NCBI RefSeq assembly: GCF_000348685.1
Contig: NZ_ANLA01000022.1
Span: 1 to 35,505, forward strand
Reading direction: 5' to 3'
Length of the DNA: 35,505 nucleotides
Origin: Xanthomarina gelatinilytica
Lineage (GTDB): Bacteria > Bacteroidota > Bacteroidia > Flavobacteriales > Flavobacteriaceae
Shown here: positions 17,652-35,505 of the stretch, piece by piece
How the letters are laid out: each line of letters starts with the position of its first letter
How positions within the stretch are numbered: the first letter of the stretch is position 1
Position numbers and translations under genes: made by a program
The notes under the pieces: model-generated
Database searches by the model: none
Told to the model about the DNA's origin: nothing
What the model saw: only the letters and a program-made list of their open reading frames with translations

Positions 17652-17681
17652 CAAATATAAAACGTTTAATCAATATTCCAA
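17652..17681 (-). promoter_or_regulatory. Promoter for tRNA-Lys: TTG-N19-TATATTTG
   Basis: On the minus strand TTG (17681-17679) is followed by a 19-base spacer and TATATTTG (17659-17652), then CACCC. The start should be near 17646, about 20 bases before the tRNA. The core TTTTATATTTGCACC is the same as in the promoters at the right end of the window. Confidence 0.85.
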
Positions 17682-32845: not shown

Positions 32846-34786
32846 TTAAAATGTTTTTAATGATTTTTTTATATCTTCATTAATAATATTGGTTAAACCT
32901 TCAACAGTAATCATGCCAAGATCTTCACCACCATGTTGGCGAACCGAAATTTTGTTTTCTTGCTCCTCGTTTTCTCCAACTATCACCATGTATGGGATTT
33001 TTTTCATTTCGGCTTCCCGAATTTTCTTCCCCATGGTTTCATTTCTATTATCAATTAGGGCGCGAATTTCGTTATTTTCTAACACATTTAAAACTTTTTT
33101 CGCGTATTTTTCATATTTCTCACTTATTGAGAGCACAATAACTTGGTCTGGCATGAGCCATAGTGGGAAATTTCCTCCAGTATGTTCCAGTAAAATGGCA
33201 ATAAAACGTTCCATGCTCCCAAAAGGTGCACGATGGATCATTACAGGTCTATGTAATTCGTTGTCGCTGCCTTTATAGGTTAAATCAAAACGTTCTGGAA
33301 GGGTATAGTCTACTTGTATGGTGCCAAGTTGCCATTGTCTCCCCAAGGCATCTTTAACCATAAAATCCAATTTTGGGCCATAAAAAGCTGCTTCACCTGT
33401 TTCCACAACAAAATTCAATCCTTTGTCTTTGGCAGCATTAATAATGGCTTGCTCTGCTTTTTCCCATAAATGATCTTCACCAATGTACTTTTCAGGGTTT
33501 TCTGGATCTCTCAATGATACTTGAGCTGTAAAGTTTTCAAAGCCTAATGATCCAAAAACATAAAGTACTAAATCTATCACATCCTTAAATTCCTTGTCCA
33601 ATTGCTCTGGTGTACAGAAAATATGGGCATCATCTTGGGTAAAACCCCTTACTCGGGTCAAACCATGCAATTCGCCACTTTGTTCATACCTATAAACAGT
33701 GCCAAATTCGGCAAAACGTTTCGGCAATTCTTTATAAGACCATTGAGAACTATTGTATATTTCACAATGATGCGGACAATTCATGGGCTTTAATAAAAAT
33801 TCTTCCCCTTCTTTTGGGGTGTGTATGGGTTGAAAACTATCTGCACCATATTTCGCGTAATGTCCAGAAGTTACATAGAGTTCTTTTTGTCCAATATGAG
33901 GAGTCACAACCATTTCGTAACCAGCTTTTTTTTGTGCTTTCTTTAGAAAGTTTTCCAAACGTTCACGTAAAGCAGCCCCTTTTGGAAGCCACAACGGAAG
34001 CCCTTGACCTACTTTTTGAGAAAAAGTAAACAACTCCAGTTCTTTGCCAAGTTTTCTGTGATCTCTTTTTTTGGCCTCCTCCAATAGTTCCAAATACTCT
34101 GTAAGCTCTTTCTGCTTTGGGAAGGAAATCCCATAGACTCTTGTTAATTGTTTGTTGTTTTCATCCCCTTTCCAATAGGCACCTGCTACGCTTAAAATCT
34201 TCACAGCCTTAACAATTCCTGTGTTAGGAATATGGCCACCTCGACATAAATCGGTAAAAGTAGAGTGATCACAAAATGTAATGGTTCCATCCTCAAGATT
34301 TTCAATTAAATCTACTTTGTAAGGGTTTTTGTTTCTGTAATAAGAAATGGCCTCTGCTTTGGAAATAGATCGCATCTTAAATTCATGTTTTCCCCTGGCA
34401 ATTTCAAGCATCTTGTCTTCAATGCGTTTAAAGTCTTTGTCGGATATAGAGTCTTCACCTAAATCTATATCGTAATAAAACCCGTTTTCAATAGCAGGAC
34501 CTACCCATAATTTAGCATTTGGATACAGCTCCTCAATAGCTTGAGCTAGAATATGTGCAGATGAGTGCCAAAAAGCTTTTTTGCCTTCATCGTCATTCCA
34601 AGTATATAAGATTAAAGAGCCATCGGTAGTCAAAGGAGTGGTGGTTTCAATAACTGTATCGTTAAATTTAGCCGAAATAACATTTCTGGCAAATCCCTCA
34701 CTAATGCTTTTGGCAACTTCCATTGCTGTCGTGTTTTTTTCAAACGACCTAATACTACCATCTGGCAATGTAATCTGTATCATCAT
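32846..34786 (-). CDS. thrS: Threonyl-tRNA synthetase
   Basis: The 646-residue enzyme charges tRNA-Thr and edits Ser-tRNA-Thr. Domains in order: TGS (1-62), the editing domain with HSSAHILAQAIEELYP and the HxxxH-type site, FCDHSTFTDLCRGGHIPNTG, the class II catalytic core with zinc ligands Cys in MNCPHHCEIY (~337), His in SGELHGLTRVRGFTQDDAH and His in VMIHRAPFGSMERF, and the anticodon-binding domain (~545-646). The first two codons are both ATG (34786 or 34783). It is the first gene of the thrS-infC-rpmI-rplT operon. Its promoter predicts a leader of only about 20 bases, which leaves no room for a T-box or a tRNA-like operator. Confidence 0.97.
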   Translation of the reverse strand: MMIQITLPDGSIRSFEKNTTAMEVAKSISEGFARNVISAKFNDTVIETTTPLTTDGSLILYTWNDDEGKKAFWHSSAHILAQAIEELYPNAKLWVGPAIENGFYYDIDLGEDSISDKDFKRIEDKMLEIARGKHEFKMRSISKAEAISYYRNKNPYKVDLIENLEDGTITFCDHSTFTDLCRGGHIPNTGIVKAVKILSVAGAYWKGDENNKQLTRVYGISFPKQKELTEYLELLEEAKKRDHRKLGKELELFTFSQKVGQGLPLWLPKGAALRERLENFLKKAQKKAGYEMVVTPHIGQKELYVTSGHYAKYGADSFQPIHTPKEGEEFLLKPMNCPHHCEIYNSSQWSYKELPKRFAEFGTVYRYEQSGELHGLTRVRGFTQDDAHIFCTPEQLDKEFKDVIDLVLYVFGSLGFENFTAQVSLRDPENPEKYIGEDHLWEKAEQAIINAAKDKGLNFVVETGEAAFYGPKLDFMVKDALGRQWQLGTIQVDYTLPERFDLTYKGSDNELHRPVMIHRAPFGSMERFIAILLEHTGGNFPLWLMPDQVIVLSISEKYEKYAKKVLNVLENNEIRALIDNRNETMGKKIREAEMKKIPYMVIVGENEEQENKISVRQHGGEDLGMITVEGLTNIINEDIKKSLKTF

Positions 34787-34811
34787 AAATCTTTTAAAGT
34801 AAAATAAGATG

Positions 34812-34842
34812 CAAAGATAATAGGATAAACAATCACATACAA
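34812..34842 (-). promoter_or_regulatory. Promoter for thrS: TTG-N20-TATCTTTG
   Basis: On the minus strand TTG (34842-34840), a 20-base spacer and TATCTTTG (34819-34812), a full consensus match. It lies 25 bases before the ATG. Confidence 0.75.
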
Positions 34843-34926: not shown

Positions 34927-35100
34927 GGGCGTTCCCTTTTGTGCAACAAAAGGTCAGGCTTTACACTATATCTTTTTTTTAAACATTATAAATAAAACCC
35001 ATCTCAATAAATATATCCCATCTCAGTCTTTAGTTCTTAAAATAAAAAAACAAGACAATTCAATCCTTAAAAAAAAGGATGCCGTTTCAATCCTTAACGC
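34927..35100. ncRNA. Structured intergenic element with paired ends (possible ncRNA or dispersed repeat)
   Basis: The 5' end GGGCGTT (GCGTT at 34929-34933) can pair with AACGC at 35096-35100. Inside are a strong hairpin, CCTTTTGT-GCA-ACAAAAGG (34935-34953), and a second arm, ATCTTTTTTTT (34970-34980) with AAAAAAAAGGAT (35069-35080). A local alternative, ATCCTT (35063-35068) with AAGGAT (35075-35080), competes for the last arm. The segments TCAGGCTTTACACTATATCT and CAATCCTTAACGC resemble, from memory, a recurrent element of flavobacterial genomes that has the forms GGGCGTG...GGTCGGGCT...CGCTATATCTTTT...AAAAGGAT...CACGC. I could not check this against a database. Strand and expression are unknown. 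Confidence 0.5.
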
Positions 35101-35189
35101 TTAAAAGAAACTTAAGCTAAAAAAAACACAAGCTAACTCCTTCTAAAAGAAACAGCTGCAAATCCTTTAAAAAATACTTGGCAAAAAGT

Positions 35190-35221
35190 TTGTTTGATAA
35201 AGGAAAAGGGTTGTATCTTTG
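35190..35221 (+). promoter_or_regulatory. Tandem promoter 1: TTG-N17/21-TATCTTTG
   Basis: TATCTTTG at 35214-35221 with TTG at 35194-35196 (17-base spacer) or 35190-35192 (21). It is preceded by an A-rich AAAGGAAAAGGGTT and followed by CACTC. Confidence 0.75.
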
Positions 35222-35327
35222 CACTCGCTAAAAACGGGATATACGTTTAGGTGAAGTTCTTTTACAGGTTGTTTTTTGTTTTTTTTGGGTGTTTCGAAAA
35301 AACTTTCAAAAAATATAAAAAATAGCT

Positions 35328-35356
35328 TTGAAGTAAGGAAAAAGGGTTTATATTTG
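35328..35356 (+). promoter_or_regulatory. Tandem promoter 2: TTG-N18-TATATTTG
   Basis: TTG at 35328-35330 and TATATTTG at 35349-35356, followed by CACCC. Upstream is an A-tract region (CTTTCAAAAAATATAAAAAA) like an UP element. It lies 135 bases after promoter 1. Confidence 0.8.
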
Positions 35357-35470
35357 CACCCTCAAAAAACCGGGATGTTTTTTGGAGAGCAACAAGTTCT
35401 TGCGTTACGTGTTTTTTTTCGGTGGTTTTGGGATGGTTGGAAAACTTTTTCAAAAAAAGCAAAAAAAACA

Positions 35471-35501
35471 TTGCATGGATAAAAAAAGGGTTTTATATTT
35501 G
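35471..35501 (+). promoter_or_regulatory. Tandem promoter 3: TTG-N20-TATATTTG
   Basis: TTG at 35471-35473 and TATATTTG at 35494-35501, ending in CACC at the window edge. Its upstream A-tracts copy those of promoter 2, 145 bases before. The start site would fall just outside the window, so the driven gene lies beyond. Confidence 0.8.
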
Positions 35502-35505
35502 CACC

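Follow-up and report, generated by a model that had tools for sequence, protein, structure and literature searches.

We believe that the end of the window, by which we mean the whole stretch of DNA analysed here, 35,505 nucleotides that form an entire contig (C22) and stop with its last base at 35505, is probably a ribosomal RNA (rrn) promoter stack built of promoter-hairpin-boxA modules. Each module would consist, in order, of an A-tract, a -33/-7 promoter whose start region is GC-rich, a hairpin at the predicted 5' end of the transcript and a boxA, and tandem duplication of this unit of ~140 bases would be the simplest origin of the stack. As far as sequence comparison can establish such things, the promoters, the family-wide order and conservation of the module and the presence of a 16S gene downstream in relatives are firm.

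Stacked promoters at a contig end

Three promoter repeats lie on the plus strand at 35204-35225, 35339-35360 and 35484-35505, with start-to-start distances of 135 and 145 bases, and belong to three promoters of the form TTG-N17-21-TAnnTTTGCAC (P1, P2 and P3; Table 1). The pattern RAAAAGGGTTNTATNTTTGCAC, with at most three mismatches allowed, occurs in the window at these three places only (0.02 expected; 0 of 100 shuffles reach three). Among 5000 dinucleotide shuffles of 35180-35505, three TTG-N17-21-TAnnTTTG sites arose in none, two in 9 and one in 294, and GGGTT..TAnnTTTGCA likewise appeared in none. The promoter stretch is free of overlapping ORFs of 80 aa or longer. Together, these results confirm what an earlier note on this DNA had claimed, namely three repeats at this spacing, on the plus strand and with no gene between them.

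The primary sigma factor and the promoters of Bacteroidota are unlike the textbook ones, and all three window promoters are of the sigma-ABfr type found there, with TAnnTTTG at -7 and TTG or TTTG near -33; the distance from TTG to the -7 element is 17 or 21 bases in P1, 18 in P2 and 20 in P3. Two or more promoters on one strand with no intervening gene make a tandem array, which the window itself shows, probably in an rrn context. The A-tract of P2 could be an UP-like element. Transcripts of F. johnsoniae start 4-5 nt after the -7 element (excerpts of PMC6847099), and if this distance holds here, the starts proposed in the earlier note, 35228, 35363 and 35508, fall about 2 nt late (predicted starts in Table 1). 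The further suggestion that the tRNA-Lys promoter, which lies on the minus strand with its -7 element at 17659, has the same extended core holds in part: TTTTATATTTGCACCC is shared, but the AAAAAGGG spacer is absent.

Table 1. Features of the stack and of its divergent neighbour, in window positions.
Feature	Position	Strand	Remarks
thrS, threonine--tRNA ligase, divergent neighbour	32846..34786	-	TIGR00418, 720 bits
Putative thrS promoter	34810..34842	-	TTG-N20-TATCTTTGCA
P1 core	35190..35224	+	TTG 35190-35192 (or 35194-35196); -7 TATCTTTG 35214-35221; predicted start ~35226
P1 hairpin at predicted 5' end (boxB position)	35226..35253	+	holds first CGGGAT; z -1.6, not significant alone
P1 boxA-like element	35256..35266	+	GTTCTTTTACA
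A-tract upstream of P2	35297..35321	+	repeat of P3's A-tract (D5, 76%)
P2 core	35328..35359	+	TTG 35328-35330; -7 TATATTTG 35349-35356; predicted start ~35361
P2 hairpin at predicted 5' end	35361..35387	+	CGGGAT in loop; z -0.3, not significant alone
P2 boxA-like element	35396..35406	+	GTTCTTGCGTT; core kept, 3' half degenerate
A-tract upstream of P3	35441..35465	+	repeat D5
P3 core, 16S-proximal	35471..35504	+	TTG 35471-35473; -7 TATATTTG 35494-35501; predicted start ~35506, past contig end

Searches of the window's own 3.05 Mb assembly (G000) gave no match to 16S or 23S, and the start of a second contig, C16, is the reverse complement of the window's promoter stack at 94% identity. The absence of rRNA genes, together with two contig ends bearing the same stack, is what would be expected of an assembly that broke at a repeated rrn operon, and it suggests that the genome has two or more rrn operon copies.

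Stacks of this kind are widespread in the family. A 16S match was present in 77 of the 149 family genomes searched; from the part of the listed places that was fetched, we analysed 94 leaders drawn from 70 genomes, 4 of these genomes coming from the same-genus search, and left out one duplicate locus (L119). For counting promoters we used the 70 operons with at least 500 bases upstream (49 genomes, those with two operons counting twice), and called none in 1 operon, one in 16, two in 31, three in 20 and four in 2, so that 53 of the 70 have at least two, at a median spacing of 137 bases (range 91-318). These calls rest on the motif, and some are likely spurious (L204 at -554, L165 at -588, L226 at -346), while others were perhaps missed. 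Among other Bacteroidia, at least two promoters were called in 15 of 22 operons, the remainder of 29 loci after removal of one from the same family (L232) and six with less than 400 bases upstream. Within the genus, three promoters are seen in G000, at both contig ends, and in G005 (L009, L016), and two in the available stretches of G001, G002, G004 and G007; this variation in copy number, which the earlier note had wished to see compared in related genomes, fits its reading of the copies as diverged tandem duplications.

The 16S gene and thrS in relatives

The 16S motif GAGTTTGATC was located in four same-genus genomes downstream of the -7 element corresponding to the last promoter of the window, at 188 (G001), 187 (G002), 191 (G004) and 190 (G005) bases counted from the start of that proximal -7 element; the same search found no 16S match in G003, G006, G007 or G000 itself. 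From these distances the motif is expected near 35681-35685 here. Rfam places the start of 16S about 8 bases before the motif (in L118), and, judging by the relatives, the window's own 16S being absent from the assembly, the gene would begin some 170-180 bases beyond position 35505.

The linkage of thrS, which diverges from the stack, points the same way. We kept a sample of 80 relatives from at least 597 that were confirmed (loci L035-L114). Within this sample, 16S lies divergent from thrS at 487-850 bases in 11 loci, 9 of them among the 66 near a contig end and two elsewhere; in a further 57 of the 80 the contig stops at most 1150 bases from thrS, with no 16S reached, and in 12 of the 80, all more than 1150 bases from a contig end, there is no upstream 16S. 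With 11 of the 80 showing a divergent 16S and 12 lacking one, the pairing of thrS and rrn appears to be common in the family, though not universal. In 66 of the 80 sampled loci, thrS starts no more than 1150 bases from a contig end; this nearness is probably a side effect of placement beside rrn, an adjacency that offers a reason for the many flavobacterial contigs that end just upstream of thrS.

Could the promoters instead drive something else past 35505, such as a tRNA cluster or a protein gene? The window does stop before any gene, and its own assembly is without 16S. Nonetheless, with 16S in place downstream of the matching promoter in G001, G002, G004 and G005, and divergent from thrS in 11 of the 80 sampled loci, we regard such an arrangement as extremely improbable. 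The expectation of an rRNA operon just past the contig end, which the earlier note voiced alongside that of a tRNA cluster, is thus supported by inference from relatives, through both the 187-191-base distances and the divergent thrS linkage.

A Flavo-1 RNA-like element (RF01705) occupies 34948-35106 on the minus strand, in the interval that separates the rrn stack from the thrS promoter; at 34.6 bits it falls short of the gathering score, which is 42 (E 3.4e-5 for a search over 1.5 kb). At E of 0.05 or less, Flavo-1 was found in none of seven other sources, comprising the C16 end of the window's own genome and six loci of G001, G002, G005 and G007, two of which overlap. One Flavo-1 RNA that does exceed the gathering score, at 48.7 bits, lies at 1419-1537 of L003, minus strand, which corresponds to about 20470-20588 of contig C21 of G000, and is flanked by two genes that by eye resemble RND-efflux parts; in other same-genus genomes, L021 and L034 reach 54.8 bits, and L015, at 36, is below the cut-off. 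The AT-rich gap between thrS and rrn also holds short two-copy direct repeats at 34988-35025, 35044-35097 and 35102-35133 (D6, D3 and D7), which may be due to chance.

Putative hairpin and boxA elements after the promoters

The CGGGAT and AAGTTCTT segments that the earlier note saw downstream of the promoter copies are indeed present after P1 and P2, the equivalent of P3 falling beyond the contig end. It did not recognize these shared segments as hairpin and boxA; they are probably RNA elements of these two kinds. In the family, the 47 proximal modules give a leader element before 16S with the consensus AAAAAAGTTCATTAACATATTGAA. Before 23S, GTTC[AT]TTGACATATTG is present in all 29 complete 16S-23S spacers (33 loci were examined, 4 of which do not reach 23S), at 111-221 bases upstream of 23S, in the form GTTCATTGACATATTG in 28 of them and with T replacing A after GTTC in one. 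The consensus of boxA is GYTCNTTNACA-like. Since its positions in the leader and before 23S are those of boxA in E. coli, and since it fits this consensus, AAGTTC[AT]T is taken as the boxA of the family, and the AAGTTCTT segments as its copies, an identity established to the extent that sequence and position can do so. The family element carries a boxA sequence at both places; in the window, the P1 copy fits as well, and the P2 copy does so in its core only. Besides the main boxA, 24 of the 29 complete spacers (L115-L149) contain at least one extra GTTC[AT]T, 299-649 bases before 23S.

The element is found after upstream promoters as well as proximal ones. Modules that shared both genome and first 40 bases were collapsed into one, although near-identical copies within a genome may still count twice. 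On this basis, GTTC[AT]T lies at a distance of 20-90 bases downstream of 47 of 73 upstream (non-proximal) promoters and of 54 of 70 proximal ones, as against 2 of 73 control sites (Fisher p 1e-16, upstream versus controls). The controls are promoter-like sites from thrS and its downstream flanks, chance motif matches included, and their number equals that of the upstream modules by coincidence. It counts against the module reading that 26 of the 73 upstream modules are without the strict GTTC[AT]T and that 13 of the 73 have not even GTTC at offset 30-76. GTTC alone is present there in 60 of the 73, compared with 60 of 70 proximal modules and 12 of 73 controls; AGTTC at the same offset gives 43 of 73, 52 of 70 and 2 of 73, respectively. 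The upstream copies are looser, with C at boxA position 9 in only 7 of 43, as against 36 of 47 proximal copies, but 32 of the 43 have A at position 8 and 33 have it at position 10. In other Bacteroidia, GTTC[AT]T is present in 12 of 20 upstream modules, one of the 20 probably being a spurious promoter.

The position of the element 40-52 bases from -7, seen in 34 of the 47 upstream modules bearing it, might indicate that AAGTTC acts as DNA, as a factor-binding site or a downstream promoter element, rather than as an RNA boxA. The spacing varies, however, being 24-35 bases in most element-bearing upstream modules outside the family, and the same element stands before 23S in every complete spacer, as boxA does in E. 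coli (excerpts of PMC10250234), so that we consider a role as DNA quite unlikely.

Between the predicted start and the boxA, the RNA can fold from about +1. Against shuffles, upstream leader segments have a mean fold z of -1.78 (34 of 73 at p<=0.05) and proximal segments one of -1.86 (33 of 70), compared with -0.33 for the control sites (5 of 73). In segments of at most 42 bases with a GTTC, hairpin halves pair better with each other than with the halves of other genomes, at -8.5 vs -5.8 kcal/mol for native and chimeric upstream hairpins (n=50, p 2e-6) and -6.8 vs -4.7 kcal/mol for proximal ones (n=45, p 3e-6). Two results speak against a hairpin: the window's own P1 and P2 copies are not significant alone (Table 1), and RNAalifold, run on a MAFFT alignment of 21 leader segments, returned no consensus structure, perhaps through misalignment.

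The two contig ends of G000 allow the modules to be compared within one genome. Window and C16 copy differ at 1 of 101 bases in the promoter cores, at 3 of 55 in the hairpins (all three in the P1 loop, the P2 hairpin being identical) and at 3 of 22 in the boxA 11-mers (two where either A or T is tolerated, and one in P2 outside the core), and at 18 positions in the remaining 183 bases, gaps counted. Purifying selection or gene conversion could each explain part of this pattern.

Possible function of the repeated module and comparison with known systems

Are the upstream hairpins and boxA copies used, or is this an ordinary tandem rrn stack in which they are mere relics of duplication and the last boxA before 16S is the one that serves? 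The looser upstream boxA and the variable number of promoters within the genus would both be natural for relics, and transcripts from P1 and P2 would in any case cross the proximal boxA too. At the same time, the GTTC[AT]T core recurs after upstream promoters in the family and in other Bacteroidia amid differing surroundings, hairpin halves pair better natively than with those of other genomes, and comparison of the two rrn copies shows boxA cores that vary at the A/T position alone and a P1 hairpin that varies nowhere but in its loop, though gene conversion could limit such differences too. We favour function over relics, since the core is retained from family to family amid changing surroundings: functional upstream boxA copies seem somewhat probable, and relics an unlikely reading, if one of real weight.

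Consider what functional modules would mean for transcription. All three promoters would fire, raising initiation capacity, and their GC-rich start regions may serve growth control, although in each operon a single promoter may account for almost all of the output. Each transcript would expose its hairpin and boxA within about 45 nt, NusB (a NusB gene is present) together with S10 would bind each boxA, and polymerase would be modified within ~45 nt of whichever start was used, so that the antitermination complex could assemble before polymerase meets the next promoter or a Rho site. Extended to Bacteroidia as a class, our proposal is a tentative one, with the odds somewhat against it: the duplicating rrn unit would be a promoter with its own nut-like hairpin-boxA site, selected at each start; early loading of NusB and S10 would let polymerases from upstream starts pass busy downstream promoters; and the stack would amount to several antitermination-competent starts in series. 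A promoter-hairpin-boxA module repeated in series opens to experiment the question of what an antitermination signal is for at every start, and it supplies predicted start and boxA sites that can be examined in many genomes.

Little on rRNA transcription in Bacteroidota was found in the open-access literature, to which our survey was mostly confined, and within it we found no description of a boxA for each promoter in Bacteroidota. The tandem rrn promoters of E. coli are about 120 bases apart. In the P1-P2 arrangement of E. coli, with its boxB-boxA-boxC leader, there is one leader set, just after P2, and boxA occurs in the leader and before 23S (excerpts of PMC10250234). The stack resembles it in its tandem promoters, in a boxA both in the leader and, in the family, before 23S and in a putative stem-loop before boxA, but differs in that a hairpin and boxA of its own seem to accompany every promoter, and in the TTG/TAnnTTTG type of the promoters. 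Mycobacterial rrn regions (P1, PCL1) likewise vary in promoter number, and promoter duplication is discussed for them, so that multi-promoter stacks before rRNA operons are, as the earlier note remarked, known from other bacteria; there, however, boxA is placed in the CL2 leader motif, and the excerpts of PMC10218544 do not state a boxA for each promoter.

The promoters themselves are of a known Bacteroidota type (excerpts of PMC6847099 and PMC7366714), and like the primary-sigma promoters of that group (TTTG/TAnnTTTG) all three have an exact TAnnTTTG at -7 and a TTG near -33. Unlike the promoters derived from RNA-seq of F. johnsoniae, in which the -33 TTG is much less evident in the excerpts of PMC6847099, those described here are stacked and have a strong -33 element, with TTG 19-21 bases before 130 of the 149 TAnnTTTGCASC sites in family rrn leaders; the native F. 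johnsoniae rrn promoter is itself probably stronger than an ompA one (excerpts of PMC8710568). Tandem rrn promoters are ordinary, and it is the repetition of an antitermination signal at each start that is the less familiar variant.
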